Below, in pieces: positions 44,758-61,443 of a DNA stretch of 64,000 nt. The notes under the pieces were generated by a model that saw only the letters and a list, made by a program, of their open reading frames with translations, did not search any database and was not told the DNA's origin. How positions within the stretch are numbered: position 1 is the first letter of the stretch; each line of letters begins with the position of its first letter. The stretch is from Rhodococcus sp. H36-A4. GTDB taxonomy: Bacteria > Actinomycetota > Actinomycetes > Mycobacteriales > Mycobacteriaceae. Location: assembly GCF_027158005.1 (NCBI RefSeq), contig NZ_JAPVLQ010000005.1, positions 310,001 to 374,000 of the forward strand, written 5' to 3'. A program made the position numbers and the translations under genes.

Positions 44758-44798
44758 ATCTTCTTCAGTGCGGTCGGCCGAGCAGGGGAACACACAAG

Positions 44799-44957
44799 AT
44801 GTACAACTGGGTCGTGCAAGACGCCATCGTTGCGTTCGTCAATTCGTTGATACCGGATTTCCCCCGTCAGGAGATGCTGTATCAGTCCGGCCTCACCGAT
44901 CTCGCGTCCGCGCTGAGCAACCTGCTGACCGCTTTGGGATACCCGCCGGTCTCCTGA
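44799..44957 (+). CDS. Small protein, 52 residues, unknown
   Basis: Complete frame beginning MYNWVVQDAIVAFVNSLIPD and ending LLTALGYPPVS, with AGGGGA placed 8-13 bases before ATG. Composition is hydrophobic/amphipathic without a clear membrane span. It lies between mshB and the Rv1171-like membrane gene and could be part of their operon. No family recognised. Confidence 0.5.
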   Translation: MYNWVVQDAIVAFVNSLIPDFPRQEMLYQSGLTDLASALSNLLTALGYPPVS

Positions 44958-44985
44958 CCGCGGGGAGTACGCCAGTATTGGCTAC

Positions 44986-45438
44986 ATGATCTCGAAGGCC
45001 GCATCCAATGCTGTCGTCCTCGTGTCGAGGGCAACGCTCGCAGTACTTATTTTCGACGGCTTTCTCTGCGGCGTGCTGTCCGTATTCTTCCTCCCGGCCT
45101 ACCTCGGGCCGGTGCCCTTTCCAGTCAGCGCACTGCTGGCGGGAATCGCCAACGTGATGCTTCTCTACGCCGCGCGCAAAGTAGCAGAACGACCCCTCGC
45201 CATCGCGTCGCCGCTGATTGCTTGGGGTGTCGCAGTGCTGGTCTGCATGTTCGGTGGCCCCGGCGGCGATGTGCTGTTGCTTTCCGATTGGCGGACGGCA
45301 TTGTTGCTGATAGCAGGTATCGCCCCGGCTGGAGTTCTGTTGTTCACCTGGAGGCTGACAGCGCTCACATCAGCCCCGCATGGAAGCCGGCCGCCCGCAG
45401 CGCATCCTCGATCATCGCCGGAGTCAACCGCCCGGTGA
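44986..45438 (+). CDS. Small membrane protein (Rv1171-like)
   Basis: 150 residues with four hydrophobic segments (about 10-35, 42-62, 70-90, 100-122), then a polar Pro/Ser-rich tail of about 25 residues encoded in the 74 bases that overlap the UDG gene on the other strand. Position after mshB corresponds to Rv1171, a conserved protein of unknown function. CAGTAT (44973-44978) is seven bases before the ATG. Confidence 0.75.
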   Translation: MISKAASNAVVLVSRATLAVLIFDGFLCGVLSVFFLPAYLGPVPFPVSALLAGIANVMLLYAARKVAERPLAIASPLIAWGVAVLVCMFGGPGGDVLLLSDWRTALLLIAGIAPAGVLLFTWRLTALTSAPHGSRPPAAHPRSSPESTAR

Positions 45439-46204
45439 ACGTGTTCTGCTGACTGACGTGATAGCTACCGAACAATCGGATCGACCCCAGATCGACCTCG
45501 GCGCCATGGCCGAACTTGGGGCGTGGACGCGGAATCTCCCAGCCGTTGGCTGCCAGCACCGGTAGCAGGGCCTGCCAACCGAATCCGCCGAGTACGACCA
45601 CGGATTTCAGTGTCGGCTTCAGCAAGCTCAATTCGATGTCGAGCCACGTGCGGCAACGATCACGCTCGGTGACGGTCGGCTTGTTGTCCGGTGGAGCGCA
45701 ATGAACCGGCGCAGTGATTCTGACCCCGCGCAGCGTCAAACCGTCGCCGATGTGAGTGGCTGTCGGTTGATTGGCAAGCCCGACCGCATGCAGCGCCGCA
45801 TAGAGAAAGTCACCGCTGCGGTCCCCGGTGAACATGCGTCCGGTGCGGTTTCCCCCGTGTGCGGCGGGTGCGAGGCCGACGATCAGAACTGACGCATCCG
45901 CGGGGCCGAACCCCGGAACCGCTCTGCCCCAGTAGGTTTCGTCCCGAAATGCGGCTCGTTTCTCGGTCGCGACCTTTTCCCTCCAGGCGACAAGCCTGGG
46001 GCAAGCTCGGCAGGCACTGACAGCCAGGTCGAGTTCGGCGATGGTGGCAGGAGTGGAGCCCGCGGAATGACTATGGGGGTCAGGAGTGGAGCCTGCGGAA
46101 TGACTATGGGGGTCAGGAGTGGAGCCTGCGGAATGACTATGGGGGTCAGGAGTGGAGCCTGCGGAATGACCAGGTTCGGGGTCAGGTGTGTTCAGTGAGC
46201 CCAT
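45365..46204 (-). CDS. Uracil-DNA glycosylase, UdgB (family 5) type, with repeat N-terminus
   Basis: 279 residues. The catalytic part (from about residue 53) holds ACRACPRL, motif A GLAPAAHGGNRTGRMFTGD and motif B HVSQQNTFTGRLT, with four cysteines for the Fe-S cluster seen in families 4 and 5. It removes uracil and other deaminated bases. The first 50 residues are four 11-12-residue repeats (TPDPHSHSAGS type) encoded by tandem array A. No start codon is present between the array and the domain, so the repeats must be translated. Start ATG 46204 overlaps the end of the PH-domain gene by 13 bp. Confidence 0.9.
   Translation of the reverse strand: MGSLNTPDPEPGHSAGSTPDPHSHSAGSTPDPHSHSAGSTPDPHSHSAGSTPATIAELDLAVSACRACPRLVAWREKVATEKRAAFRDETYWGRAVPGFGPADASVLIVGLAPAAHGGNRTGRMFTGDRSGDFLYAALHAVGLANQPTATHIGDGLTLRGVRITAPVHCAPPDNKPTVTERDRCRTWLDIELSLLKPTLKSVVVLGGFGWQALLPVLAANGWEIPRPRPKFGHGAEVDLGSIRLFGSYHVSQQNTFTGRLTPAMIEDALRAAGFHAGLM
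46048..46179. repeat. Tandem array A: four 33-base units within the UDG gene
   Basis: Copies at 46048-46080, 46081-46113, 46114-46146 and 46147-46179 (last one diverges after its first 23 bases). Each contains GAGTGGAGCC(C/T)GCGGAATGA. The period is 33 bases (11 codons). The core is shared with arrays B and C. Confidence 0.95.
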
Positions 46205-47688
46205 GTGTCACCGGCTCCTGGGGTAACGGCGTCGATGAGGGCCCATGCTTGGTCTGCGGGAATGTCGAGAACTTCGTAGTGTCCGACGCCGGCCGGTGTG
46301 GCAGCGACGATTGTCGCCACACCGGCTCGCCGTTGGAAGAATGTCTGTCTGACCGTCCATCCGATGATCCCCGCGGCCTCCAGTGAGTGCCGGGTGCGGT
46401 CGAGGGATCCGTGGCGGGTGATCAACCAGCCTGGCAATACTGCGTGGCCGAGGCCCCGGTATCGATCCCTTGCGACGAATAGAGCTCCGAGCAGCACCAT
46501 CACCACGGCAATCCACACGGTTGTCGGGATCGGAGCGCCGAATGCTTCGGCGATACCGAGCGCGGCGGCCACAACGAGTACGGGGACCACTGCACGGGTG
46601 TATCTGCGACGTTTGGCGGCCGGTCCGTGCGGCGTCAGCGGTTTCTGCGCGTTCTCGTGCAGCCCTGCGTCACCGAGCACGACCGTCATCATGCGGAGCG
46701 CTTCGCGTGCGGGTGCTTGCGGTAACAGCAGTGACGATTCCTTCTTCTCCGCGCTGACACCCGTCATGATCGCATCGAGCTTGGCGCCCTTGGCGATTCG
46801 CAGCAGCAGAGGTTCGGACAGCGAGGTGCCACGAAGGCGTTTCCGGTCGAGCGTCGTCGAGCGAGTCTTGAGGAGTCCATGGTTGACGTGGAGGCGGGCG
46901 CCGTCGTCGGTGACGGTCAGATTGCCGTACGCGATCAGGTAACGCGCGCATGCGAAGAGGCTGGCGACGATCAGCAGAATCAGCAGTCCGACGACGATCA
47001 CCAGGGCGATACCGAAACGCTCCGCGGAGTCGATACTGCTGGAGACGAGGGAAGAATTTGCCACGCGCTCACCGAACCCGTATTGAAAGAGCACCCCGAC
47101 CGCCGCCGCGATGGCCACGACGCCGGTGAACGAGAACGGTGCATATCGGACCCACTCGGTCCTCCAATGCGCAATCTCGGTTGCCGCGGGCGGCGCTTTC
47201 CTGAGTGCAGCCGCCCCTCGCTCGGCTCGCTGCAGCAGCTGCTCGCGCAACGCGGGGACCACCTTCGAGTCGAGCGCGTTCAATTCGAACTTTTCACCCT
47301 TGCCCGCCTGCTGTCCGGTGCCGATCCGCAAAATCGACAGACCCAGAAGCCGATGCATGACGCCCGCTTCGACATCTACCGACCGGATTCGGCTGCGCGG
47401 CACCGACAGCAGCTTCTTTTGGAAGACCCCGGTGCGCAGTTGAACGTGTACCGGACCGATGCGATAGCTGGTGGTGAACCAGCGCAGCAATGCGAACAGC
47501 ACCACCAGGGTCACAATGACCAAACCCCATAGATGATTACCGCTCCGACTGCCGATCACGAAAGACACGAACAGCACCGGTAGGACCTTCACCGCCTCGT
47601 TGACCGGATGAACCAACAGCATCCGCTTGTCCAGACGCAGCCACGGTTGCTGCTCCTCGGCGACCAGCAGTTCGGTATCGGTACTCAC
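46192..47688 (-). CDS. PH domain (YdbT-like, bPH2) membrane protein
   Basis: 498 residues of the bacterial PH domain family PF03703. Hydrophobic pairs lie near 35-75, 175-200 and 225-255 and in the C-terminal half, with domains between (RIRSVDVEAGVMHRLLG, RKRLRGTSLSEPLLL, SLDRTRHSLEAAGIIGW). Such proteins come in pairs; this one starts inside the stop of its smaller partner (4-bp overlap). Function is envelope-related but not known; export of a bacteriocin-type peptide is known only for some relatives. Confidence 0.85.
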   Translation of the reverse strand: MSTDTELLVAEEQQPWLRLDKRMLLVHPVNEAVKVLPVLFVSFVIGSRSGNHLWGLVIVTLVVLFALLRWFTTSYRIGPVHVQLRTGVFQKKLLSVPRSRIRSVDVEAGVMHRLLGLSILRIGTGQQAGKGEKFELNALDSKVVPALREQLLQRAERGAAALRKAPPAATEIAHWRTEWVRYAPFSFTGVVAIAAAVGVLFQYGFGERVANSSLVSSSIDSAERFGIALVIVVGLLILLIVASLFACARYLIAYGNLTVTDDGARLHVNHGLLKTRSTTLDRKRLRGTSLSEPLLLRIAKGAKLDAIMTGVSAEKKESSLLLPQAPAREALRMMTVVLGDAGLHENAQKPLTPHGPAAKRRRYTRAVVPVLVVAAALGIAEAFGAPIPTTVWIAVVMVLLGALFVARDRYRGLGHAVLPGWLITRHGSLDRTRHSLEAAGIIGWTVRQTFFQRRAGVATIVAATPAGVGHYEVLDIPADQAWALIDAVTPGAGDTWAH

Positions 47689-48173
47689 GTCGCATCGCCC
47701 AACGTCTTACCGGCGATCTCGGTGAGCTGAGCGACAGTGCGATCGGCCACTTCTTTGTCCAAAGCCGTGATCTTGACCGCGCCCGCCGAGGACGCAGTGG
47801 TGACGGTGACCGTGGACAAACCCAGCATCCGGTCGATCGGCCCACGCTCGGTATCGACCGTCTGCACCCGCGAAATCGGTGCGATACGTCGCTCCTGGTC
47901 GAACCAGCCGGTCAGCGTGTACACCGCCGTGTCACTGATCTCCCAACGATGCACGCGATACCGCCACACAGGGACGACGACGATATGAACGGCTGCGAAC
48001 AAGATCGACGCAGCGAACACCGTCGTATGGGGCCACGTCGTCCACTTGCCGTCGATCACGGCCCACACGACCTGGGCGATGAACAGCGGAACCCACATCA
48101 GCGAGGCATTGATGGCCCACAACTGCCGTGCACGCGGACTCGGACGCCACGCTGGATCGGTCATTGTGATCAT
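47685..48173 (-). CDS. PH domain (YdbS-like) membrane protein
   Basis: 162 residues: two membrane spans (about 20-45 and 52-72), then a bPH2 domain (RRIAPISRVQTVDTERGPIDRMLGL). It is first of the two-gene PH operon. ATG 48173 fits TAGATT (48184-48179) five bases away; M4 at 48164 is an alternative. The frame stays open through tandem array B up to 48425, so an 84-residue repeat extension cannot be fully ruled out, but no ribosome site supports it. Confidence 0.82.
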   Translation of the reverse strand: MITMTDPAWRPSPRARQLWAINASLMWVPLFIAQVVWAVIDGKWTTWPHTTVFAASILFAAVHIVVVPVWRYRVHRWEISDTAVYTLTGWFDQERRIAPISRVQTVDTERGPIDRMLGLSTVTVTTASSAGAVKITALDKEVADRTVAQLTEIAGKTLGDAT

Positions 48174-48187
48174 GCCCCAATCTAATC

Positions 48188-48380
48188 TGGTCGTTCCGCG
48201 AGCTCCACTCCTGCCTCTCTTGGTCGTTCCGCAGGCTCCACTCCTGGCTGTCTTGGTCGTTCCGCAGGCTCCACTCCTGCCTGTCTTGGTCGTTCCGCGG
48301 GCTCCACTCCTGCCTGTCTTGGTCGTTCCGCAGGCTCCACTCCTGCCTGTCTTGGTCGTTCCGCACGCTCCACTCCTGCC
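48188..48380. repeat. Tandem array B: almost six 33-base units between PH operon and fbiC
   Basis: Units begin at 48188, 48221, 48254, 48287, 48320 and 48353 (last partial). The plus-strand core is TTCCGCAGGCTCCACTC, the complement of GAGTGGAGCCTGCGGAA. It begins four bases beyond the -10 box of the PH operon and ends 55 bases before fbiC. Confidence 0.95.
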
Positions 48381-48434
48381 CACTCCGACCACCTCCGGTG
48401 GCACGCCGACCCGTCGGTGGCGCATGATCGACGG

Positions 48435-51005
48435 GTGACCATGCTGCCTGATCCTGTAACCGCCGCTGCTCCCGAACCAGAAAAGGTCCCCGCCCCCTCC
48501 GCAATGCGTCGTGTTCTACGACGCGCCCGCGACGGGGTATCGCTCAACGTCGACGAAGCAACGGTGCTGCTGCACGCACGCGGTGACGACCTGGTGGACC
48601 TCTGCACTTCGGCGTCGCGGGTGCGGGATGCGGGTCTCGAGTCGGCGGGCCGCCCCAAAACGGTCTCGTACTCGCGCAAGGTGTTCATTCCGATCACTCG
48701 CCTGTGCCGGGACAAATGCCATTACTGCACGTTCGTGACGGTGCCAGGAAAACTGCGCGCCGAAGGCCACGGACTGTTCATGGATCCCGACGAAATCATC
48801 GAGGTTGCGCGCAAAGGCGCGGAACTAGGATGCAAAGAAGCACTGTTCACCCTCGGGGACCGGCCGGAAGATCGCTGGCCCGAGGCCAAGGAATGGCTCG
48901 ATTCCAGGGGTTACGACTCCACGCTGGACTACGTCCGGGCCATGTCGATCCGAGTTCTCGAAGAAACCGGATTGCTTCCCCATCTCAATCCTGGCGTCAT
49001 GAGCTGGCAAGAACTCTCTCGCCTCAAGCCCGTCGCGCCGTCGATGGGAATGATGCTCGAGACGACCTCCCGCCGACTGTTCGAGGAAAAAGGTCAGGCT
49101 CACTACGGCAGCCCGGACAAGGATCCCGAGGTTCGGCTACGAACTCTGACCGACGCCGGACGCCTCAACATCCCGTTCACCACCGGTATCCTCGTCGGAA
49201 TTGGGGAGACCATCCGCGATCGAGCCGAGTCGATTATGGCTATTCGTAAGGTGCACAAGGCCTTCGGTCATGTGCAAGAGATCATCGTGCAAAACTTTCT
49301 CGCCAAGAACGACACCGTGATGCGAGATACGCCCGATGCGGGCATGGAGGAATTCCTCGCAACCATCGCGGTCACGCGGGTGGTGCTCGGGCCGTCGATG
49401 CGTATTCAAGCACCACCGAACCTCGTTGCCGTCGAAGAGACCGCTGCGTTGCTCGGCGCCGGCGTCGACGACTGGGGTGGCGTCTCTCCGCTGACTCCCG
49501 ATCACGTGAACCCGGAACGGCCGTGGCCGAATCTCGACACCTTGGCCGAGCTGTCCGAAGCCGCCGGATACACGCTGACCGAGCGCACAGCAGCGCAACC
49601 GCAATACGTTCTCGCGGGCGCGCCGTGGATCGATCCGCGTATCTCCGCGCACGTGAATGCACTGGCAGATCCTAAGACCGGAATGGCGCGTGACGGCGTC
49701 CTCCCGACGGGGCTTCCGTGGCAAGAACCGGACGAGGAGTGGGTGTCCTCGGGCCGAGTGGATCTCAACACCGAGATCGACACCGAGGGGCGTAACACCG
49801 AAACACGTAGCGACCTCGACAACGCATTCGGGGATTGGGAGTCCATCCGGGAGCAGGTACGCGATCTGGCCGGCCTCGAACGCGTCGACAGGGACCTGGT
49901 GGCCGCGCTCCGAGCGGCCGAAAAGGATCCCGCCGGTCTGTCCGACGAGCAGTACCTGGCGCTCGCGACGGCCGAGGGGACCGGCATGGACGCCGTCGCG
50001 GCCCTCGCGGACGACCTACGCAGGCAGGTCAACGGCGAGACCGTCACCTACGTCGTCAACCGGAACATCAACTTCACCAACATCTGCTACACCGGCTGCC
50101 GGTTCTGTGCTTTCGCGCAGCGCAAGGGCGACGCGGATGCGTTCACGCTGTCCACGGCCGAGGTGGCGGACCGCGCCTGGGAGGCGCACGCTCTCGGTGC
50201 AACCGAGGTCTGCATGCAGGGCGGTATCGACCCGGAACTGCCGGTCACCGGTTATGCGGACCTTGTTCGCGCAGTGAAAGCACGGGTGCCGTCGATGCAC
50301 GTCCATGCGTTCTCGCCGATGGAGATCGTCAACGGGGCTTCACGAGGTGGACAGTCGATTCGTGATTGGCTTGTCGAACTTCGTGCCGCGGGGCTGGACA
50401 CCATTCCCGGTACTGCAGCGGAGATCCTCGACGACGAGGTCCGCTGGGTGTTGACGAAGGGCAAGTTGCCTGCTGCAGAGTGGATCGAAGTTGTCACCAC
50501 CGCACACGAAGTAGGCCTGCGATCGAGCTCGACGATGATGTACGGCCATGTCGACAATCCGTCGCACTGGGTTGGTCATATGAACGTGCTCAAGGGAATT
50601 CAGGACAAGACAGGCGGATTCACCGAGTTCGTACCGCTTCCGTTCGTGCACCAGTCCTCGCCGCTGTATCTAGCCGGAGCGTCGCGTCCCGGCCCGACCA
50701 ACCGTGACAACCGCGCAGTGCATGCATTGGCGCGGATCATGCTGCACGGACGTATCGACAGCATTCAGACTTCGTGGGTCAAGCTCGGCATCACCGGCAC
50801 TCAGGCGATGCTCAACGGGGGCGCGAACGATCTCGGTGGCACGTTGATGGAAGAGACCATTTCGCGGATGGCGGGAAGCCAGAACGGATCGGAGAAGACC
50901 GTCGCCGAGCTCCACGAGATTGCGAACGGGATCGGTCGTCCTGCTCGTGAACGCACGACGACCTACGGTCTCGTCGACAGGTTCCCCGCGGTTGGACTCG
51001 TCTGA
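48435..51005 (+). CDS. fbiC: Bifunctional FO synthase CofG/CofH
   Basis: 856 residues with two radical-SAM halves that make FO, the chromophore of coenzyme F420, from a ribityl-pyrimidine and tyrosine. The CofG half has CRDKCHYC near residues 90-97 and the CofH half has CYTGCRFC near 547-554; both have the CxxxCxxC cluster triad. It aligns along its length with M. tuberculosis FbiC. GTG 48435 is used, with CATGAT six bases before; ATG 48441 or GTG 48417 are possible. F420 would serve the LLM enzyme at 21.4 kb. Confidence 0.97.
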
Positions 51006-51007
51006 GC

Positions 51008-51781
51008 ATGGACAATCGCACAGTAGTCACAGCCCTCGACCGGGCCGTGGCCATCATCGACCCTGTTCTCGACGTTCTCGCCGAACGTGATCCGGTAGGG
51101 CTGAAGGCGAGAACGTTTCGAAGACCGACCGTCGAAGACACCGCCATCGACACCGTGCTCGACACGTTGGCGAAGACCCTGAACGCCACCGACTTCCCAG
51201 GGACCGCAGCATGGCTCGAGCTCGATGCGCAGGCCCGCTCGTGGTGGTGGGTCGCGCGGATCGGTGCCGTCAACACCGTGGCCGTTGCATTCCCCAGCGT
51301 CTTCGGTGTACTGGTCAACCGGCTGCCGTTGCAGGATCTGCTCGGCTTCGCGAACCAGGCGATGGTTCTCGTTGCCGTCGCCAGAGAGAACGGAGTGACG
51401 GACCGTTCGGCTCACGTGAGCATGCTCGCGTCCGTACTGTGCGGCCGTGAGGTCGTTCGCGAAGGCGCCGAGCCCGATACCTCATCGACACCGACACCGA
51501 AGCGCGAGTGCGGACCCTTCGCGCTACTGCATGCGATGTGGGACGTCGCGGCCGTGCTGAGGGACGTATCGAGCGAGCTGGCCAAGCGTCCGCACAGCCG
51601 TGGCATCTACCGTGTTCTTTCCGCGATTCCTCTGGTCGGCGGCGTGGCAAGCTACATCGGGGAACGTGGTGCGCTCTCCCGGGCTGCCAAACAGGGGATC
51701 GGTTGGGTTCACGCGAACGCCGAAAGTCCGAGCCACGTAGGCTCGGAAGGGGCTTCTCGGATGATCCGAGTGTCACAGTGA
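51008..51781 (+). CDS. Conserved hypothetical protein downstream of fbiC
   Basis: 257 residues, family not recognised. It starts two bases after the fbiC stop, so it is co-transcribed and probably coupled. Sequence is mostly helical and moderately hydrophobic (ARIGAVNTVAVAFPSVFGVLV near 83-103; GIYRVLSAIPLVGGVASYIGE near 199-219), with a variable linker rich in Thr and Pro. No motif for catalysis or metal is evident. A link with F420 is suggested only by position. Confidence 0.65.
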   Translation: MDNRTVVTALDRAVAIIDPVLDVLAERDPVGLKARTFRRPTVEDTAIDTVLDTLAKTLNATDFPGTAAWLELDAQARSWWWVARIGAVNTVAVAFPSVFGVLVNRLPLQDLLGFANQAMVLVAVARENGVTDRSAHVSMLASVLCGREVVREGAEPDTSSTPTPKRECGPFALLHAMWDVAAVLRDVSSELAKRPHSRGIYRVLSAIPLVGGVASYIGERGALSRAAKQGIGWVHANAESPSHVGSEGASRMIRVSQ

Positions 51782-51896
51782 GGACACCCTGCGCGGATTG
51801 TCGTAAATCTACGACGCGATACTAGGATTCTCAGGGCACTGCAAGCAGTGAACAACGCTTTCGGTGCCGATTACTGGAAAGGGAGGGAGACCAGCA

Positions 51897-52220
51897 GTGA
51901 CGTACACGATTGCGGAACCGTGCGTGGATGTACTCGACAAGGCATGCATCGAAGAATGCCCGGTGGACTGCATTTACGAAGGTGGCCGCATGCTGTACAT
52001 CCACCCCGACGAATGCGTCGACTGTGGTGCATGCGAACCGGTTTGCCCCGTCGAGGCCATCTTCTACGAGGACGACGTACCGGAGCAGTGGAGTGGCTAC
52101 GTGAGCGCGAACGTCGATTTCTTCGACGATCTGGGTTCACCCGGTGGGGCCGCGAAGCTCGGCAAGACCGATTTCGACCCACCGTTCATCAAGGCGTTGC
52201 CTCCCATGGGTGAGAGCTGA
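51897..52220 (+). CDS. fdxC: Ferredoxin FdxC-type (7Fe)
   Basis: 107 residues. Cysteines 9, 17, 21, 25 and 40, 43, 46, 50 give the 3Fe-4S plus 4Fe-4S pattern; CVDCGACEPVCPVEA is the second motif. GTG 51897 follows GGGAGGGA, a strong ribosome site. The C-terminal LGSPGGAA segment is conserved in mycobacterial FdxC (Rv1177). dapC follows after two bases, as in M. tuberculosis. Confidence 0.95.
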   Translation: MTYTIAEPCVDVLDKACIEECPVDCIYEGGRMLYIHPDECVDCGACEPVCPVEAIFYEDDVPEQWSGYVSANVDFFDDLGSPGGAAKLGKTDFDPPFIKALPPMGES

Positions 52221-52222
52221 CA

Positions 52223-53326
52223 TTGGCGCGTATTTCCGTCGCGTCCGGCCTTCCCGACTTTCCCTGGGACTCACTGACTGCCGCGAAAGACAAGGCACAG
52301 TCGCACCCGGACGGAATAGTGGATCTGTCGGTAGGCACTCCTGTCGACCCGGTTGCACCGATCATTCGTGCTGCGCTGGCATCGGTATCCGACATCCCCG
52401 GTTACCCGACGACCGTCGGCACGCTCGAGTTGCGTGAAGCAGCAGTTGCTGCTCTGGGGCGGCGGTACGGCATAACGGGGATCGGCGTCGATGCCGTTCT
52501 GCCTGCCATCGGCACCAAGGAAATGATCGCCTGGTTACCGAGCCTTCTCGGTCTCGGTAGCGGCGACCTGGTGGTCATCCCCGAACTGGCTTACCCGACT
52601 TACGAAGTCGGAGCCCTCCTTGCAGGTACGCGCATCATTCGTGCCGACGGCTTGAATCGACTCGGGCCCGAGCGCGCATCGCTCGTATTCGTGAACTCTC
52701 CTGCGAACCCGAGCGGCAAGGTACTGGGCCTGGAGCACCTCCGCAAAGTGGTCGGGTGGGCCCGTGAGCGCGACGCCGTGGTCGTGTCCGACGAGTGCTA
52801 CCTCGGCCTGACCTGGGAAGGTGAGGCGCTGTCGATCCTCGACCCCCGTGTCAGCGATGGCGACCATACGAATCTTCTTGCCGTGCACTCACTTTCCAAG
52901 ACGTCCAATCTCGCCAGCTATCGTGCAGGCTTCGTCGTCGGCGACCAGAAATTGGTAACCGAACTGCTCGAAGTCCGCAAACACGCAGGAATGATGATGC
53001 CGTTGCCGATTCAAGCTGCGATGACCGCGGCACTGACCGACGACGAGCACGAGAACATCCAGCGTGAGCGCTACCGTGCCCGTCGCACCACACTGCTCTC
53101 CGCCGTCAGAGCAGCCGGGTTCGAAGTAGATCACTCCGAAGCCGGGCTGTATCTCTGGGCCACCCGCGGCGAACCCTGCCGTGACACCATCGACTGGCTC
53201 GCCGAACGCGGCATCCTTGCCGCACCGGGTGAGTTCTATGGTCCGCGCGGATCCCAGCACGTCCGTATCGCGCTGACTGCCACCGACGAGCGTATCCAGA
53301 CTGCGGCGGAGCGGTTGACGGCCTAG
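52223..53326 (+). CDS. dapC: Succinyldiaminopimelate transaminase
   Basis: 367-residue fold-type I PLP enzyme converting N-succinyl-2-amino-6-ketopimelate to N-succinyl-LL-DAP. PLP lysine is in HSLSKTSNLASYRAGF; NPSGKV and SDECYLGL precede it. TTG start directly after fdxC. The nearby dapD and dapE on this window make the lysine/DAP assignment stronger than for a generic class I aminotransferase. Confidence 0.93.
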   Translation: MARISVASGLPDFPWDSLTAAKDKAQSHPDGIVDLSVGTPVDPVAPIIRAALASVSDIPGYPTTVGTLELREAAVAALGRRYGITGIGVDAVLPAIGTKEMIAWLPSLLGLGSGDLVVIPELAYPTYEVGALLAGTRIIRADGLNRLGPERASLVFVNSPANPSGKVLGLEHLRKVVGWARERDAVVVSDECYLGLTWEGEALSILDPRVSDGDHTNLLAVHSLSKTSNLASYRAGFVVGDQKLVTELLEVRKHAGMMMPLPIQAAMTAALTDDEHENIQRERYRARRTTLLSAVRAAGFEVDHSEAGLYLWATRGEPCRDTIDWLAERGILAAPGEFYGPRGSQHVRIALTATDERIQTAAERLTA

Positions 53327-53379
53327 GCTCGCGAGTATCCAGTTGCGCGTTGTCTGGCCTGGGTGTTTCCATTCAGTCC

Positions 53380-53997
53380 ATGACCGTCAGTGTGCTGCTC
53401 AGCTTTGCAGGTGTGTGCTTCCTGCTGGCGATTCTTCCTGGGCCGGATTCGTTCCTCGTGCTTCGATACAGCATCGGAGGGCAGCGACCCGGAATTGCAG
53501 CGGCCATGGGAGTCGCACTCGGCGGTTTGTTCTGGGCAGTGCTGGTTGCCGTCGGACTCGCGGCCATCGTCGAGCAGTCTGCGACCGTGTACCGAATTAT
53601 CAAGATCCTCGGTGGGCTGTACCTGCTGTACCTCGGGGTACGTGCGTTTTTGGCGCGCAGGAAGACTAACGTCGACGGTGAGCCGATGGTGCCGGTCGTG
53701 GCCTCGGCTCGGTCCGCCTTCGGTGCCGGTGTCCTTTCGTGCGCACTCAATCCCAAAGTCGGGCTGTTCTATCTCGCTGTCGTTCCTCAGTTCCTGACCG
53801 TGGTCACGTTCGCCGGAGCCATGACACTCGGTGTCGTGGAAGTGGTGGTCGCCGCACTGGTCATGGGCGTCTTCTCGGTCGTCGCCTCGCGTGCCGTCGT
53901 CCTGCTGCGGCGACCGAAGGTGACCGACTGGCTCGATCGCATCAGTGCGGGAATCCTCGCGGCCCTCGGGATCGGCACAGTCGCGTCCTCGGTGTAG
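53380..53997 (+). CDS. LysE/RhtB family amino-acid exporter
   Basis: 205 residues, six hydrophobic segments; PGPDSFLVLRYSIGGQRPG in the first loop is the LysE family signature and NPKVGLFYLAVVPQF follows. Its neighbours make lysine precursors, but RhtB-type substrates include many amino acids, so lysine export is a guess. ATG 53380 fits the first membrane segment. Confidence 0.88.
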   Translation: MTVSVLLSFAGVCFLLAILPGPDSFLVLRYSIGGQRPGIAAAMGVALGGLFWAVLVAVGLAAIVEQSATVYRIIKILGGLYLLYLGVRAFLARRKTNVDGEPMVPVVASARSAFGAGVLSCALNPKVGLFYLAVVPQFLTVVTFAGAMTLGVVEVVVAALVMGVFSVVASRAVVLLRRPKVTDWLDRISAGILAALGIGTVASSV

Positions 53998-54031
53998 GGC
54001 ACAGGTGCCGTGATCGAACCCGATTCGAGGG

Positions 54032-54427
54032 TCAGGCGATGTCCCAACCACCCCGCCTGATGCGGAGGATGTAGACCAGTTCATTGCTGCCGAAAGCCTC
54101 GACCGTGGTGAACCGCTTGGGTGCAGCATTGACCGCCGGATTGCGTGCATTCGCTTCCTCGTAGATCTGGGCGGCCCGCAAGTCTGCGAGTTCCACGCGT
54201 GTCCAGAAATCGTCGGACTGCACCGAATAGACCAGCCGAGGAGCACCGTCGCTGATGTGCGCGACCTCGATATCGTCTTCGTTGTCCAGGTCGTCGCCCA
54301 GATCTTCCTCGTCAGCGATTTCCTGGTCGGCATCGGTTCCGATCAAATAGACCCCGGGCTGCAGGTCTCCGGCGGGCACCGTCATGTACTCGGCGTAGTC
54401 GCCGGTGTCGATTCCGTCGGCATCCAT
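54032..54427 (-). CDS. Acidic hypothetical protein
   Basis: 131 residues, very acidic over 25-65 (EDLGDDLDNEDDIE). The second half could be a small alpha/beta domain. Not recognised. ATG 54427 is chosen because TACCGT (54439-54434) is six bases before it on the minus strand; ATG 54469 would put its start inside fadD36. Confidence 0.6.
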   Translation of the reverse strand: MDADGIDTGDYAEYMTVPAGDLQPGVYLIGTDADQEIADEEDLGDDLDNEDDIEVAHISDGAPRLVYSVQSDDFWTRVELADLRAAQIYEEANARNPAVNAAPKRFTTVEAFGSNELVYILRIRRGGWDIA

Positions 54428-54444
54428 GTATGTACGGTAACCAT
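54428..54444. promoter_or_regulatory. Overlapping divergent leaderless promoters
   Basis: The 17 bases between opposite start codons contain GTACGGTAAC. On plus, TACGGT (54433-54438) is six bases from GTG 54445; on minus, TACCGT (54439-54434) is six bases from ATG 54427. The two -10 boxes share five bases, so only one polymerase could use them at a time. Confidence 0.55.
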
Positions 54445-55845
54445 GTGCTGCTTCGATCATTGAATCCACTCGCCGTCGCTCGCGGAGACGATATTGCCGA
54501 CGCTGTGACGATCGGCGGTGTCTCCTTGTCCCGCGGTGACATTCTCGGCGCCGCGACGTCGGTCGCCGAGCGGATCTCGCGGGCAGAACGCCTGGCAGTT
54601 CTCGCGACTCCCAGCGTCAAGACTGTGCTTGCCGTTGTCGGTGCGCTGATTGCAGGTGTGACGGTGGTGCCGATTCCGCCCGATGCTGGGCATGCCGAAC
54701 GCGAACACATGCTGCGAGACTCCGGTGCGCAGGCCTGGCTCGGCGAGGCGCCCGAGGACACGGCGGGCCTCGAGGTCCTGCCGGTTCGTCAGCACGCCAG
54801 GTCCTGGCACAGCTACCCGGATCCACACCCGTCGTCCATCGCTTTCATTCTCTACACCTCCGGCACGACCGGCCCGCCGAAGGGCGTCCTGTTGTCGCGC
54901 GAAGCGATCGCGGCCGGCATCGACGCGGTAGCGCAGGCGTGGAACTGGACATCCCGGGACACTGTGGTGCACGGCCTTCCGCTGTTCCATGTCCACGGCC
55001 TGCTCCTCGGAGTACTGGGTCCGCTGCGCGTCGGCAGTCCGCTCGTGCACACCGGTAAACCGACTCCCGAGCTGTATGCCGCCGCCAAAGGGACACTGTA
55101 TTTCGGTGTCCCGACGGTATGGTCCCGCATCGCCGCCGACGAGACGTCCGCGACAGCCCTCGCGCATGCCCGGCTACTCGTCTCCGGCAGTGCGCCTCTA
55201 CCGGTGCCGGTGTTCGAGAAACTGAAGGAACTGACCGGCCAGGCGCCCATCGAGCGCTACGGCATGAGCGAAACACTGATCACCATCAGCACCCGCGCCG
55301 ACGGAGAACGTAGGCCCGGCTCCGTGGGAGTGCCGGTCGATGGCGTCGAGACACGAATCGTGAGCGAGGCGGGTGAGACGCTCCCACACGACGGGGAGTC
55401 GATCGGAGCGCTGCAGGTACGCGGTCCGATGATGTTCGCCGGCTACCTGAACAACCCGGAGGCGACGGCGAAGGTCTTCACCGAGGACGGTTGGTTCGAC
55501 ACCGGCGACGTGGCGGTCATCGGCCCGGACGGATTCCATCGCATCGTCGGACGCGCATCCACCGACCTGATCAAGACCGGTGGCTATCGCGTCGGTGCCG
55601 GTGAGATCGAGACCGTTCTGCTGGGGGACCCGAGCGTCGACGAGGTCGCCGTCGTGGGCCTTCCGGACGATGACCTCGGTCAGCGCATCGTCGCATTCGT
55701 CGTCGGCACCGGCGTCGAACCGTCGGCTCTCATCGATCTCGTCGCGAGGGAACTGTCGATTCACAAGCGGCCGAGGGAAATTCGCATCGTGGATTCATTG
55801 CCACGCAACGCGATGGGCAAGGTTCAGAAGAAGCATCTCGGCTGA
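54445..55845 (+). CDS. fadD36: Acyl-CoA synthetase (FadD36-like)
   Basis: 466 residues of the AMP-binding superfamily, activating a carboxylic acid to its acyl-CoA through an acyl-adenylate. P-loop YTSGTTGPPKG near 131-141, ERYGMSETL, GWFDTGD, GRASTDLIKTGGYRV and the C-terminal GKVQKK lysine. The short length and N-terminus (LLRSLNPLAV) fit M. tuberculosis FadD36 (Rv1193), in similar order to dapC/D/E. GTG 54445 is preferred. Confidence 0.88.
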   Translation: MLLRSLNPLAVARGDDIADAVTIGGVSLSRGDILGAATSVAERISRAERLAVLATPSVKTVLAVVGALIAGVTVVPIPPDAGHAEREHMLRDSGAQAWLGEAPEDTAGLEVLPVRQHARSWHSYPDPHPSSIAFILYTSGTTGPPKGVLLSREAIAAGIDAVAQAWNWTSRDTVVHGLPLFHVHGLLLGVLGPLRVGSPLVHTGKPTPELYAAAKGTLYFGVPTVWSRIAADETSATALAHARLLVSGSAPLPVPVFEKLKELTGQAPIERYGMSETLITISTRADGERRPGSVGVPVDGVETRIVSEAGETLPHDGESIGALQVRGPMMFAGYLNNPEATAKVFTEDGWFDTGDVAVIGPDGFHRIVGRASTDLIKTGGYRVGAGEIETVLLGDPSVDEVAVVGLPDDDLGQRIVAFVVGTGVEPSALIDLVARELSIHKRPREIRIVDSLPRNAMGKVQKKHLG

Positions 55846-55849
55846 GCGG

Positions 55850-56488
55850 TTATTCGACGAGGCGACCGAAGCCTACGACGGCCGAATCATTGGATACGTC
55901 GACGGTATGTACGCGGATTTTTCCGAGTTCGTTGCCACCTACCGTGGTGGCTGTGTTTCCGTCGATCGCTACGACGATGTTGGTGTGCTGACCGATCCAA
56001 CTGCTGTTGTCGTAGAGCACGACGTCCCCGACCGCCGGGATGTATCCCTTCGGTTCGAATCTGTCCTCGCCTTGGTAGTACTCGGTCAGCGTGTACACAC
56101 CGGGGATCCGCCAGCTCCCGGAATTCGGGTTGCTCAGTGGCTGTCCTGCCTCACGCATGATCCAGCTGACGAAGTTTGCGCACCACGCTTCTTCGACACC
56201 ATCGGAGTAGAACGTTCCCGGGTTCTGTCGGCTGTGTTCGGTGCGGAGAAGTTCGACGACCTCGGCCTGCTCCGAAGACAGACCCGAAGCGTCGACATCG
56301 GGAAAAGCAGTTGTATCCCACGGCAAGTATCTACTCGGCGCCAACCACAACACGCCCGCTGCCAACAACACGGTGGCAGCAAGAACTCCGGCTACCCACG
56401 CCAACTTTCGACGGTGCGTGCGCGGGGCCGGTGAGGTACTCCCCGATTGCGCGCGCACAGATGCGGTGTCGACCCCGTCGTTACCCAT
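55850..56488 (-). CDS. Membrane-anchored CHAP domain protein (amidase/peptidase)
   Basis: 212 residues: a basic stretch, one membrane span (about 30-50), then a CHAP domain with catalytic Cys in EAWCANFVSWI and His in GQHTNIVVAIDG. CHAP proteins cleave peptidoglycan peptides or amides; here it would act outside the membrane. It ends four bases after the fadD36 stop on the other strand. Confidence 0.88.
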   Translation of the reverse strand: MGNDGVDTASVRAQSGSTSPAPRTHRRKLAWVAGVLAATVLLAAGVLWLAPSRYLPWDTTAFPDVDASGLSSEQAEVVELLRTEHSRQNPGTFYSDGVEEAWCANFVSWIMREAGQPLSNPNSGSWRIPGVYTLTEYYQGEDRFEPKGYIPAVGDVVLYDNSSWIGQHTNIVVAIDGNTATTVGGNELGKIRVHTVDVSNDSAVVGFGRLVE

Positions 56489-56594
56489 CTGCGGAGTGTA
56501 TCGGCCTCCGAGCCGGATGAGTGCGCAGGCCGAGCTGCTATTGTCGGCCCCGCGACGAAGCTGTTTCGACCAAAAATTCTTCGGAAGGCTCCAG

Positions 56595-57014
56595 ATGGAC
56601 TACGACCTACAGCGATTCGTCGACGCGCAGGATCCGGTGTGGGACACCGTCCGCGCCGAGCTGAAAGCCGGCCGCAAAAGCACCCACTGGATGTGGTTCG
56701 TTTTCCCACAACTCGCTGGACTCGGACGGAGCGCGACGGCTCAACACTTCGGTATCGCAGACCGCGTGGAAGCGCAGATGTACCTCTCCCACGAAGTGCT
56801 GGGGCCTAGATTGCGGAAGGCCGCCGCGATGGTGGCAAAGATCCCCGACGGGACCGCCGCAGACGTTTTCGGCTATCCGGACGATCTGAAGCTGCAGTCG
56901 TCGATGACCTTGTTCGCCGAAGTCGACCCGGGTATTCCGATTTTCGGCGAGGTTTTACGGAAGTACTACGACGGTAAGCCGGACGAGCGAACTATCGATC
57001 TGCTCGACGACTAA
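56595..57014 (+). CDS. DUF1810 family protein
   Basis: 139 residues matching the DUF1810 (YdiH-like calpastatin-named) family: LQRFVDAQDPVWDTV, GRKSTHWMWFVFPQL, LGPRLRKAA and FGYPDDLKLQSSMTLF. Distribution is wide and the function unknown, though some are linked with nucleotide-type NADAR/DarT systems. ribH follows after 11 bp. Confidence 0.9.
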   Translation: MDYDLQRFVDAQDPVWDTVRAELKAGRKSTHWMWFVFPQLAGLGRSATAQHFGIADRVEAQMYLSHEVLGPRLRKAAAMVAKIPDGTAADVFGYPDDLKLQSSMTLFAEVDPGIPIFGEVLRKYYDGKPDERTIDLLDD

Positions 57015-57025
57015 CATCATCTTTC

Positions 57026-57478
57026 ATGACGAACGAGCAACTGGGATCCATCGCCTTCATTCAAGCGACGTGGCACAGCGAGATAGTCGACCGTGCGCGC
57101 CAGGGATTCGTTTCCGAGTTGGTGGCACAGGGCTATACCGAAGCTTCGGTCGTTCAATTCGCGGTACCAGGCGCCTTCGAGATTCCCCTGCACGCCCAGC
57201 GTCTGGCACGCACGGGTAAATATTCGGCAATCGTGGCCGCGGCACTCGTCGTGGACGGCGGAATCTATCGGCACGAATTCGTCGAATCAGCGGTCATCGA
57301 CGGCCTGATGCGAGTCCAGCTGGACACCGACGTACCAGTGTTCTCCGTGGTGCTGACGCCCCATCACTTCCACGAGCACGCCGATCACTCGGCATTCTTC
57401 ACCGCGCATCTGGAGCGCAAGGGAGTCGAGGCGGCACGCGCAGTGGTCACGACTCTCGACTCCCTTCGCACCATCTAA
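57026..57478 (+). CDS. ribH: 6,7-Dimethyl-8-ribityllumazine synthase, type II (RibH2-like)
   Basis: 150 residues. Joins the ribityl-pyrimidine and butanone phosphate to give lumazine, the riboflavin precursor. The sequence [32 protein letters not shown] and [13 protein letters not shown] fits RibH2 of Brucella and rhizobia, a decamer, rather than the usual 60-meric RibH1. No rib gene lies beside it, so it is likely a second copy. It overlaps the end of dapD by 4 bp. Confidence 0.92.
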
Positions 57479-58428
57479 TCGTTGGCGTGTAGTGCGGCGT
57501 TCAGTTCGACGCCGGTGCCCTTCCACGGCACGACCTCAACGGCACCGGATACCGAATTTCGACGGAACAACAGATTGCTGTTTCCGTTGAGCGTCGCAGC
57601 CTTCACGACGGTGCCGTCCGGGCCAGTGACTTTGGTTCCCGCGGTGATGTAGAGGCCCGCCTCGACGACACAGTCGTCGCCGAGGGAAATACCGAGTCCG
57701 GAGTTGGCGCCGAGCAGGCAACGCTCGCCGACGGAGATGACGTTCTTGCCGCCGCCGGACAGTGTGCCCATGATCGATGCGCCACCGCCGACGTCGGAGC
57801 CGTCACCGACGACGACTCCGGCCGAGATACGGCCCTCGACCATCGAGTTACCGAGCGTGCCCGCGTTGAAGTTGACGAATCCCTCGTGCATGACCGTCGT
57901 TCCGCTCGCCAGATACGCGCCCAGACGGACGCGATCGGCGTCGGCGATCCGGACGCCCGACGGCGCGACGTAGTCGACGAGACGGGGAAACTTGTCGATG
58001 CTGAGGACGGTGACGTGGCCGCGTGCACGAAGGCGAGTGCGGACTGTCTCGAAACCGTCGACCGCTGCCGGTCCGAAGTTGGTCCATACGACGTTGGCAA
58101 GAAAGCCGAACTGGCCGTCCAGGCTGAGCCCGTGCGGCTGAACGAGGCGATGCGAGAGCAGATGCAGACGCAGGTAGACGTCATGCGCGTCGATCGGTGC
58201 GTCGTCCAGCGAGGCTATGGTCGTTCGGACGGCGACGACGTCGACTCCGCGAGCTTCGTCCGGTCCGACGAGGGCGGCGAACTCGGCGGGGATGTCCGAC
58301 CCCTCGAGTCGCGTGGTGCCGACTGGCCCGTTTCCGCCCAGCTCGGGGCTGGGGTACCAGGTGTCGAGGACGACTCCACTGGTGGTGATGTTGGCAATGC
58401 CTATTGCTGATGCTCCCTGTGCGCTCAC
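57475..58428 (-). CDS. dapD: Tetrahydrodipicolinate N-succinyltransferase
   Basis: 317 residues, the same length as M. tuberculosis DapD (Rv1201c), with the actinobacterial N-terminal domain and a left-handed beta-helix of hexapeptide repeats ([20 protein letters not shown] and on to [16 protein letters not shown]). It succinylates tetrahydrodipicolinate, the first step of the DAP succinylase branch. GTG 58428 gives the exact family length; the open frame continues upstream to 60135 without family sequence. Confidence 0.97.
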
Positions 58429-58503
58429 AGGTACCGAGGATACGGCGTGCGTCGTCGAAGGCAGAAGCGCGACTGCTACGGGCGTGCGTGCTAAACATGA
58501 TTC

Positions 58504-59445
58504 ATGACTTTGGGGGCGCAATTCCGACGGTGGGGCACGGGTGCTGTAACGGCCGTATTGATCGCAGGAGGAACAACGGTCTTGCAGGCGCCGACGGCGT
58601 CCGCGGCACCTGAGTGTGCGGCGGTGAGTGCACCGCCGGTGAAGGTCGCCCAGATCGACGGCTCGGCGCTCGAAGGCCTGGCGGTCGACGGGCAGGGCAG
58701 GCTCTACACGACCGACATCGTCACTGGCCGGGTCTACCGGATCGATGCGCCGGGCCAAGCCGCATATCCCATCGCGACGGTACCCAGTGGCGGCGGAGGC
58801 GCCCTTACCTGGATGCCGGACGGCACCTTGCTCGTCGGGTACGGCGCCGATCCCCGCGTCTTCGTCGGTGATCTCATCAAGGCTGCAGGCATCGTTCGGC
58901 TGAACGTCGATACGCTCGAGCTCAGCCCGTTCGCGACGGGTTTGAGTGCCGCAAACGGGCTCGCTGTCGCCGGGGATGGGACCGTGTACGCGACGAACGA
59001 TTTCGGTGGTCTCATCGGGCAAGTTCGCCCCGACGGATCGGTGAATTCCGAGTGGGCCAGGTTCCCCAGCGCCAACGGCGCCGTGCTCGATCTTGCAGGC
59101 GAATACCTGTACGTGTCTCGGACGTTCGTGAACCCGGGGGTGAGCCGAATCCCGGTCGCCGATCCATCGAGGCCGGAGAGCATTCTCGACTTGTCCGGTC
59201 TCGACGCGTTGAGCGCACCAGACGGTCTGACACTCGATTCCGCAGGCCGCCCCGTCGTTCCGCTCAACGCCCGTGGGCAAGTAGTTCGCATCGATGCACC
59301 CGGGCAGTACTGCGTCCTCGGCAGTGGCATTCCGTTGTCGAGTGTTCTGATCTATGGCCGTGGTGAACAGGGGTTTTCCGCTGGAAAGTTGTTCCGGGCA
59401 GGATTCGATGGCGCGGTGTACGAGATTCCCGGTGGCGCAGTCTAG
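58504..59445 (+). CDS. Exported SMP-30/gluconolactonase-like beta-propeller protein
   Basis: 313 residues. Signal peptide with cleavage after TASA near 36. The rest is a six-bladed propeller with repeated [38 protein letters not shown] units, as in SMP-30 and strictosidine-synthase-like lactonases. Calcium-dependent lactonase activity is possible but not shown. Array C lies just after. Confidence 0.85.
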
Positions 59446-59457
59446 AGGCGGGACAGG

Positions 59458-59556
59458 CGCGAGTGGAGCCTGCGGAATGAGCCGAAGTGGCGCGAGTGGA
59501 GCCTGCGGAATGAGCCGAAGTAGCGCGAGTGGAGCCTGCGGAATGGCTGGAAGTAG
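59458..59556. repeat. Tandem array C: three 33-base units before dapE
   Basis: Units 59458-59490, 59491-59523, 59524-59556, each with CGCGAGTGGAGCCTGCGGAA. The last unit ends in TAG, which forms the first half of TAGTCT (59554-59559), the likely -10 box for dapE. The TAG is also an in-frame stop, so dapE cannot extend into the array. Confidence 0.95.
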
Positions 59557-59565
59557 TCTCGTACG

Positions 59566-60663
59566 GTGAGTTCGCACCCGGCTTTGAATCTGCATTCCGA
59601 CCCCATCGATCTGACAGCGGCGCTGGTGGACATACCCAGTGTTTCGCGGGAGGAGTCGGTGATCGCCGATGCGGTGGAGGCCGCGCTGCGTGAGCAGACG
59701 GTCGGATTCGAGATCATCCGGAGCGGTAATGCGGTTCTTGCGCGCACCGATCGTGGGCTTCCCAGTCGCGTGATGCTCGCCGGTCACCTCGATACCGTCC
59801 CGATTGCCGACAATGTGCCGAGTAGACGGGAACGCGACAGTGTCGAGGGCGATGTCTTGCATGGTTGTGGCACGGTCGACATGAAGTCGGGTGATGCGGT
59901 GTTTCTTCATCTCGCCGCCACGATCGAAGAGCCTGCGCACGACATCACGCTGGTGTTCTACGACTGTGAAGAGATCGACGCTGCGCTCAATGGATTGGGG
60001 CGGATCGAACGTGAGTTGCCGGAGTGGCTCGCGGCCGACGTGGCGATTCTGGGTGAGCCGTCCGGTGGATTCATCGAGGCGGGTTGCCAGGGCACGCTGC
60101 GAGTGCGGCTTTCGGTGGGTGGTACGAGAGCGCACAGTGCGCGATCATGGCTGGGGGACAACGCAATTCACAAGTTCGGTGCTGTTCTCGACAGGTTGGC
60201 TGCATACAGTGCGCGAGAGGTGGATATCGATGGCTGCTTGTACCGCGAAGGTCTGCAGGCTGTCCGTATTTCCGGTGGCGTCGCAGGCAATGTCGTCCCC
60301 GACGCAGCCGAGCTGGATGTGAACTTCCGCTTCGCCCCCGATCGGAGTGTCGAGCAGGCTATCGAGCATGTTCGTGACGTCGTCGACGGTCTCGATCTCG
60401 GGTTCGAGGTCACCGATTCTTCACCTGGTGCGTTACCTGGACTCGCCGCGCCTGCTGCTGCTGCGCTGATCGAGGCGGCGGGTGGCGGGTTTCGCGCCAA
60501 GTACGGCTGGACTGACGTGTCGCGGTTCTCAGCGCTCGGTATCCCGGCGGTCAACTACGGTCCTGGAGACCCGAACTTGGCGCACAAGCGCGACGAGCGG
60601 GTGCCTACCGATCAGATCACGAATGTCACGGCTGTTCTACGGGGATACCTGACCACTGGATAA
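59566..60663 (+). CDS. dapE: Succinyl-diaminopimelate desuccinylase
   Basis: 365-residue M20 metallopeptidase giving LL-DAP and succinate. Zinc-binding AGHLDTVP near 68, [13 protein letters not shown] near 102, DCEEIDA near 133 and GEPSGG. GTG start six bases after TAGTCT. It is followed by the LOG pair; in M. tuberculosis dapE (Rv1202) sits in the same stretch. Confidence 0.96.
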
Positions 60664-60705
60664 CCTGTGGTCCCGATGGTAGATGGGCCGGATAGCCTGT
60701 AAAAC

Positions 60706-61443
60706 ATGGAGACGCCAGCGAAACACATGGGGTCGGTGACGTTGCGTCGCGGACGCAACACCGAATCATCGACCTCCGATCAACGATTGCTCGATCAGCG
60801 TGGAACAGGAAACTGGACTCACACCGACCCGTGGCGGGTGCTGCGAATTCAGAGTGAGTTCGTGGAGGGTTTCGGTGCTCTCGCCGAGGTGCCGAGGGCG
60901 GTCACGGTGTTCGGTTCGGCCCGAACTCCGCGTGATCACGAGGAATACAAGTCTGCCCGCGAGCTCGGAAGTGCGTTGGCGGTAGCGGGATTTGCGGTCA
61001 TCACCGGCGGTGGCCCTGGAATCATGGAAGCTGCAAACCGCGGCGCGAGTACCGCCGACGGCTACTCGATCGGGCTCGGCATCGAGCTGCCTTTCGAGCA
61101 GGGCCTCAACGATTGGGTCGATCTGGGTATCGACTTTCGGTACTTTTTCGTCCGGAAGACGATGTTCGTGAAATACTCCCAGGCATTCATCTGTCTCCCA
61201 GGCGGTTTCGGCACTCTCGATGAGTTGTTCGAGGCTCTCACGCTGGTGCAGACGGGCAAGGTGACTCGATTTCCGATCGTCCTGATCGGCACAGAATTCT
61301 GGTCCGGTCTTATCAGCTGGATCAAGGACACATTGGTCGCGCAAGGCAAGGTTTCCCCGGCCGACCTGGACTTGATTCGTTGCACCGACAGCGTCGAGGA
61401 AGCAGTGCAGATCGTGAACAGTGTTTGCGGAGAGCCGGAGTGA
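60706..61443 (+). CDS. LOG family protein (cytokinin riboside phosphoribohydrolase-like), long form
   Basis: 245 residues, TIGR00730-type. A 50-residue N-terminal part precedes the fold; GGGPGIMEAANRGA and PGGFGTLDELFEALTLVQTGK are the LOG signature. The family releases free cytokinin bases from AMP-linked forms or cuts nucleotides at the N-glycosidic bond. TAGCCT (60693-60698) seven bases before ATG. Overlaps the second LOG gene by 4 bp (GTGA). Confidence 0.92.
   Translation: METPAKHMGSVTLRRGRNTESSTSDQRLLDQRGTGNWTHTDPWRVLRIQSEFVEGFGALAEVPRAVTVFGSARTPRDHEEYKSARELGSALAVAGFAVITGGGPGIMEAANRGASTADGYSIGLGIELPFEQGLNDWVDLGIDFRYFFVRKTMFVKYSQAFICLPGGFGTLDELFEALTLVQTGKVTRFPIVLIGTEFWSGLISWIKDTLVAQGKVSPADLDLIRCTDSVEEAVQIVNSVCGEPE

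Follow-up and report, generated by a model that had tools for sequence, protein, structure and literature searches.

A dispersed 25-bp repeat of Rhodococcus and related genera, probably a REP-like family of very small elements that grows locally into minisatellites

Among described systems, the repetitive extragenic palindromic (REP) repeats, with which the bacterial interspersed mosaic elements (BIMEs) are grouped, are the closest to the element reported here: a 25-mer found as solitary copies and tandem arrays in Rhodococcus sp. H36-A4, three arrays of which lie in a 64,000-nt stretch of its genome (contig NZ_JAPVLQ010000005.1, positions 310,001 to 374,000; hereafter the window, numbered from its first letter). 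According to passages of PMC3733652, GTAG and CGTC REPs share with the Rhodococcus element their many dispersed copies, their occurrence as singles and clusters, and their mostly intergenic location with some coding copies; CGTC REPs likewise lack a dedicated transposase (PMC3733652, same passages). REPs measure 20–40 bp and have coding copies that add residues in other phyla, so residence inside genes is not in itself new; the passages name none in Actinobacteria, and a word search of the paper returned no Rhodococcus, Nocardia, Actinobacteria, Mycobacterium or Corynebacter (PMC3733652). Unlike REPs, the Rhodococcus 25-mer has no GTAG or CGTC end and no stem of 5–13 Watson–Crick pairs, the Y1 transposase is missing from 36 of 37 genus genomes, and the copies form head-to-tail arrays of about 33 bp with hypervariable tails. 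The absence of palindrome, tag and REP-associated tyrosine transposase (RAYT), the head-to-tail arrays, the hypervariable tails and the actinobacterial setting are new relative to known small dispersed repeats.

Other systems share single traits with the element. Mycobacterial interspersed repetitive units, a form of variable-number tandem repeats (VNTRs), are actinobacterial dispersed repeats of variable tandem number with larger intergenic units. Rickettsia palindromic elements (RPEs), reportedly studied by Ogata in 2000 and 2002, offer a likeness within genes. As described in parts of PMC10969869, they insert in frame into unrelated genes and add a peptide, occur outside genes as well, and have been called selfish; the first RPEs were about 150 bp long, whereas the Rhodococcus element is 25 bp, is not a Watson–Crick palindrome, uses four frames and occurs in tandem arrays. 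Passages of PMC3733652 class RPE-4 and RPE-6 with the short CGTC REPs. Miniature inverted-repeat transposable elements (MITEs) are likewise short, non-autonomous and dispersed, with in-gene fusions (parts of PMC10969869), but their terminal inverted repeats and target duplication were not seen at the readable junctions of the Rhodococcus element. A search of open-licence papers found no description containing the letters of the core, and the two papers in which one of the peptide strings occurs are, by title, on other subjects.

We regard the element as probably belonging to a family of very small dispersed elements, RAYT-less and REP-like in lifestyle, that grow locally as minisatellites. The preliminary description of the window had reported three arrays with a 33-base period, each unit combining a shared 17-base core with a variable half. 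Period and shared core are borne out: Tandem Repeats Finder (TRF) gave period 33 throughout (46041-46170, 4.0 copies; 48188-48380, 5.8; 59456-59545, 2.7), and the 17-mer, at up to 3 mismatches, had 14 matches in the window, 13 of them within arrays (4, 6 and 3 units), against a chance level of 0.20 (100 dinucleotide shuffles of the window, none reaching 14). The extent of the conserved part had been underestimated: it is a sharply bounded 25-mer, C[A/G]GGAG[T/C]GGAGCCTGCGGA[A/G][C/T]GACC, to which some 8 variable bases are added in arrays. Its borders show as a steep rise of information content at position -3 and a fall after position 21 across 157 clusters from the H36-A4 genome and the listed loci of other species; the latter are matches listed in an exact 22-mer scan, which favours intact copies, and orthologues of different species were entered separately, a scope that applies to all cluster counts below. 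The borders, CRGG... and ...YGACC, show neither tetranucleotide end, and the H36-A4 genome holds two forms of the core, GAGTGGAGCCTGCGGAA and GAGCGGAGCCTGCGGAG. Solitary copies account for 86 of the 157 clusters among those listed, a sample biased to intact copies. Around 79 isolated copies, a second match downstream reached 20–21 of 25 positions in three cases and at most 17 in the rest, and upstream at most 16, with control windows reaching up to 17. Constant in the window, the 33-bp step is only the mode for the family (70 of 143 unit steps; 32–34 bp in 117 of 143; full range 27–40). The earlier suggestion that a period of 11 codons keeps frames open suits array 1, which is coding in five close species, and fails as a general rule, since intergenic arrays also have periods of 32, 34, 35, 36 and 37 bp.

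The three arrays lie within 14 kb, as described before, but the family is genome-wide: at up to 2 mismatches, the 4.65-Mb H36-A4 genome has 71 core matches versus 7 for the reversed control, most of them clustered with steps of 32–37 bp. Every one of 37 genus genomes has at least one match at 1 mismatch; 31 have 20–223 and six have 1–7, and since the control gives 0–5, the lowest counts are at control level. A family-wide sample of 301 genomes from 31 genera contained a 22-base form (up to 2 mismatches) in 119 genomes and 18 genera, with genera showing one or two matches doubtful because the control also gives 0–2 per genome; the matches listed in the exact 22-mer scan include Rhodococcoides, Rhodococcus, Aldersonia, Nocardia, Smaragdicoccus and Antrihabitans. 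Exact matches listed for the complete genome G015 (5.34 Mb) are spread from 466 kb to 4.89 Mb. About 0.9 Mb of its contig 1 (>4.89 Mb and <0.466 Mb) is free of exact matches among those listed; mismatched matches were listed up to a limit and a recognisable dnaA was not found in its first 6 kb, hence we make no claim on the replication origin. Separately, one H36-A4 contig of 866871 bp (locus L033, G000:C22:866695) ends 160 bp past a core, where an array may have broken the assembly.

Filled and empty versions of the same site are seen inside genes. Among 30 of the 37 genus genomes compared at pyrB, an 11-codon insert is present in five (core intact in two, with one mismatch in two, decayed in one), partial in one, diverged within the same loop in five, and absent in 19; in three of the remaining genomes, G011, G023 and G027, the match is broken in two at that position, a pattern to be expected from larger inserts. 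Aligned to a solved aspartate carbamoyltransferase, the insert falls in a gap just before the conserved NAGDG motif. The M18 aminopeptidase carries the element peptide in 16 of 30 cases (one to three units) and none in 14. Compared with the nearest empty orthologue, the net size of a solitary copy is 33 bp in five pyrB rows (four genomes, with L195 and L288 from the same one), and aminopeptidase net sizes are 33, 30, 36, 27, 21, 18 or 66 in 14 rows (13 genomes, L020 and L258 coming from one), all multiples of 3. The UDG gene that carries array 1 is occupied at two places: at the N-terminus in a five-species clade, where array 1 lies in the coding frame and, read on the minus strand, encodes an in-frame 11-aa repeat (GHSAGSTPDPHSHSAGSTP...), and in an internal loop in G006, G007 and G010, with a single GRSAGSTP or GHSAGSTP copy. 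UDG orthologues read outside the five-species clade have a short N-terminus of the MGALTTIEQLD type from the equivalent start codon. Passages of PMC3733652 caution that a copy at the N-terminus may escape translation where the true start lies downstream of it. Elsewhere, a site before a start codon is filled in G029 and empty in H36-A4, with a net size of 36 bp and no visible duplication, and terminal inverted repeats were not seen at the readable junctions.

Copy number differs between close relatives at shared sites. In H36-A4 (G000), G029, G030, G020 and G021, array 1 has 4, 3, 2, 5 and 1 units and array 2 has 6, 2, 4, 5 and 1, respectively; at array 3, G000 has three units and G020 a single good copy, while G029, G030 and G021 each retain one degenerate copy. 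Tandem copy number thus varies at the same site between related species, as in a VNTR. These data, together with solitary and tandem 25-mers at unrelated sites, agree with the earlier proposal of a dispersed element that seeds local tandem growth. That proposal was to fall if the core were found nowhere else and were missing from the orthologous sites of close relatives; the core is present at arrays 1 and 2 in all five close genomes, and at array 3 it is intact in two and degenerate in three. In G020 (L227 ~11297), the SGL gene left of array 3 does not align, and the element stands beside different sequence. Of 25 further genus loci around the PH gene, 20 lack a core (up to 2 mismatches) within 1.5 kb. 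The intergenic region of array 2 is occupied in G022 and G027 too, though by copies on the opposite strand, whereas the copy of G006, G007 and G010 lies about 590 bp downstream, inside the UDG gene.

A site-by-site comparison of H36-A4 with G029 separates the behaviour of core and spacer. At 15 sites both genomes hold one copy or more (L035 was dropped by the core filter), and copy number is equal in 3 of them; spacers are 8 bp in 48 of 80. Mean difference is 6.3% in the flanks and 5.2% (closest units) or 6.2% (all pairs) in the core, whereas spacers, present in both genomes at 11 of the 15 sites, differ by 31% (closest) or 37% (all pairs); spacers of different sites differ by 55%. These values indicate fast turnover of the tails with likeness within arrays, and a core that changes no faster than the flanks; at the degenerate array-3 site the core difference is 31%. 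Since most G029 stretches were chosen because G029 has a match there, "occupied in both" is a biased class; at the unbiased sites, namely the three window arrays and three located by synteny, G029 has an intact core in five of six, array 3 being the degenerate one. For seven of 20 H36-A4 clusters the comparison contained no G029 counterpart.

Two positions of the 25-mer are strongly coupled. In 206 distinct clusters, positions 3 and 16 combine as T-A in 136, C-G in 61, T-G in 5, C-A in 3 and T-C in 1 (types assigned by the majority of units, with seven clusters holding both types), and their mutual information is 0.678 bits over 330 units, compared with 0.052 for the next-best pair. The variable positions -2 and 17 are not linked in that way, so the coupling does not simply reflect two subfamilies. 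Positions 3 and 16 are symmetric about the element centre, where symmetric positions give 5 standard pairs interrupted by G.A and G.G mismatches. For the candidate hairpin pairs -1:20, 2:17, 3:16, 7:12 and 8:11, 95.0% of cells are paired, which no slide equals, and both covariation and paired cells lie above all 500 shuffles (count based on 52 hand-picked sequences of 121 distinct 25-mers). A folded strand with G.A mismatches and a symmetric protein site are both possible.

From these comparisons we propose that new copies arise rarely and on either strand, landing at unrelated intergenic sites or in gene loops and termini. A seated copy would then be multiplied and pruned as a unit of about 33 bp by tandem duplication and deletion, through slippage or end joining, and local minisatellites would result, with tails that change fast and a core that persists, presumably as the recognised part. 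Because the 25-mer has a stop codon in at most one of its six frames, insertions of a multiple of three would survive in genes. What is recognised in the core is probably either a folded single strand, with G2-Y17 and Y3-R16 pairs flanked by G.A mismatches, or a symmetric protein site, the recognition being by a host enzyme.

Several results weigh against this model. No movement was observed. Two of the five hairpin measures fall within the shuffle range (76 of 500 shuffles attained the value for "pairs with a change on both sides", and 112 of 500 that for "further pair types"), and one pair carries most of the covariation. RNA and DNA folding energy models show no unusual stability relative to shuffles, and the proposed mismatch-rich hairpin differs from the predicted minimum fold. 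Outside genes, filled/empty pairs scatter from 9 to 52 bp, most with diverged flanks and many less than 90% identical, for which reasons a 33-bp inserted unit is not established there. Target-site duplication is not visible in the few readable pairs above 90% identity, where boundaries are ambiguous by a few bases. Filled/empty pairs could also partly be losses, as the subclades with filled loops in pyrB and in the aminopeptidase are separate and some of these loops have decayed. Screens of the 37 genus genomes for Y1/RAYT, reverse transcriptase and Ku yielded no candidate mobilising enzyme. Finally, the element lies just upstream of the ribosome binding site of ctaD (loci L319-L331), on the strand of the gene, in 12 of 30 loci, the 12 coming from seven genera. 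A one-base indel marks one of these copies, and the remaining eleven match 20–25 of 25 positions; the 18 loci without a copy, which include all three genus members examined, score 14–17, as background does. This apparently long conservation points to a host function for one copy or more.

The ctaD copy, fixed in place and strand, leads to the strongest rival, a binding core having also been raised in the preliminary description: that the 25-mer is a selected binding site for a protein or RNA, serving gene control or chromosome organisation, with arrays as clustered sites. We give this explanation a low though real probability. A core that differs no more than its flanks while spacers differ about five times more is what it would lead one to expect, and the symmetric 3/16 coupling and the spacing peak at 33 bp also speak for it. 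Orientation relative to genes, on the other hand, is random: of 162 listed clusters, 45 are in predicted genes, 72 between co-directional genes, 22 between convergent and 23 between divergent genes, and those between co-directional genes divide into 37 sense and 35 antisense (genes were called by a purpose-written codon-usage script trained on the window and the H36-A4 loci, which misses some genes). Copies sit midway in unrelated coding genes, sites have decayed (array 3 in three relatives, pyrB in several species), and six of the 37 genus genomes have 1–7 matches only, all of which tells against a selected site.

It is improbable that the copies form a REP/BIME family whose mobility depends on a RAYT (Y1) transposase. 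Its size, dispersal, clusters, in-gene copies and imperfect symmetry do resemble the REPs described in passages of PMC3733652. The Pfam model PF01797, which matches in 5 of 14 control genomes, found Y1 in 1 of 37 genus genomes (G031, L318) and not in that of H36-A4, leaving the REP–RAYT route unsupported and, for present-day copies, mostly refuted; the 25-mer also lacks the GTAG/CGTC tag and the stem of 5–13 Watson–Crick pairs. Dependence on reverse transcriptase was rejected, as the enzyme is present in 34 of 37 genus genomes but missing from the high-copy G021 and G030. Ku, found in all 37, does not discriminate.

A still smaller chance attaches to selection at the protein level, under which arrays would be kept for a useful encoded peptide and non-coding copies would be by-products. 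The 45 in-gene clusters fall into the six frames as 26, 7, 7, 5, 0 and 0, encoding G(R/H)SAGS(T/A)P, G(V/A)EPAERP, QE(W/R)SLR(N/S)D and V(V/T/A/I)PQAPL or like, respectively, with the frames giving RSGACGTT and SFRRLHS unused. Genes of close species enter this count separately, UDG three times and the aminopeptidase twice (once from H36-A4 itself), whereas array 1 is left out of it because the caller missed the true UDG start. Fifteen in-gene proteins were tested, the window UDG and 14 of the 45, and each has a Pfam domain; they comprise UDG, PyrB, M18 peptidase, proton antiporter (twice), ABC transporter, PknG, Rv3818-like, epimerase, Tex, aminotransferase, TipAS regulator, AIR carboxylase, NRPS and desaturase/oxidoreductase. 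The dominance of one frame (26 of 45) fits selection on the peptide, but four frames are in use, 117 of the 162 listed clusters lie outside predicted genes (with the caller missing some), and intergenic periods of 32, 34, 35 and 37 bp break the frame.

Ordinary minisatellites grown independently by replication slippage, with unit likeness by chance, would account for local copy-number change and the largely homogeneous spacers within an array, but are refuted by the recurrence of one 25-mer, dozens to hundreds of times per genome and in many genera, and by sharply bordered solitary copies, and are very improbable. Least probable is a CRISPR-like array (clustered regularly interspaced short palindromic repeats), which would match the constant repeat and variable spacer of near-constant length: CRISPR spacers are unique and about 30 bp, whereas the typical spacer here measures 8 bp and largely resembles the others of its array, which refutes it, and arrays in coding loops and the many copies with no second unit also speak against it, although no search for cas genes was made.

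The arrays and their neighbour genes in the window are collected in Table 1. The second bPH_2 gene starts 15–24 bp from array 2. An Rfam scan of 44000-61000 gave nothing over the gathering score and four sub-threshold matches, none overlapping the arrays; array 2 had no match in plasmid and phage collections, a weak test because BLAST masks repeats. Elsewhere in the window, a predicted minus-strand gene contains two more short tandem repeats at 8814-8971, with periods of 15 and 18. A second dispersed feature was also seen, namely long GTGAGCGGAAACTCGTAG..CTACGAGTTTCCGCTCAC palindromes close to the ends of genes, with the 25-mer lying between palindrome arms at L106 762-786 (minus strand) and L166 ~4478.

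Table 1. Arrays, neighbour genes and long-palindrome loci. Positions refer to the window unless a locus is named; the strand of an array is that of its core.
Feature	Position	Strand	Remark
UDG-family gene (PF03167, E 2e-24)	45365..46204	-	ATG at 46204; array 1 in frame
Array 1, four 25-bp elements	46048..46171	+	33-bp period
Bacterial PH-domain protein (bPH_2)	46192..47688	-	end overlaps UDG start
Second bPH_2 protein	47685..48173	-	start ATG 48173 or 48164, from sequence; Pfam on 47685-48170
Array 2, six elements	48189..48378	-	33-bp period; between divergent genes
Radical SAM + CofH_C protein (FbiC-like)	48441..51005	+	right of array 2
SMP-30/gluconolactonase-like (SGL) protein	58504..59445	+	end 12 bp before array 3
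Array 3, three elements	59458..59548	+	33-bp period; between two genes
M20 family peptidase	59566..60663	+	start 17 bp past array 3
Long-palindrome loci	L161 ~4251, L191 ~5995, L212 ~6898, L213 ~1393

A bolder version of the proposal, which we advance tentatively and consider unlikely as a whole, is that the family represents a minimal mobile class in Nocardiaceae: a 25-nt sequence would move through a folded single-stranded DNA or RNA form marked by the coupled positions 3 and 16, insert about 33 nt per event with an untemplated 8-nt tail among them, need neither RAYT nor target duplication, rewrite the loops of core enzymes, and have left an ancient, domesticated copy in the ctaD leader. For annotation, the findings carry a warning, as peptide repeats of the element type in Rhodococcus proteins are element sequence. 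Natural enzyme pairs with and without the insert (pyrB, the M18 aminopeptidase, and the twice-hit UDG) are available for studying how protein loops lengthen, and the hypervariable arrays may serve as strain markers. The question posed is what copies so short a DNA without a RAYT. If the proposed reading is true, free-living actinobacteria own a small, gene-invading repeat without the palindrome or RAYT that would explain GTAG REPs.

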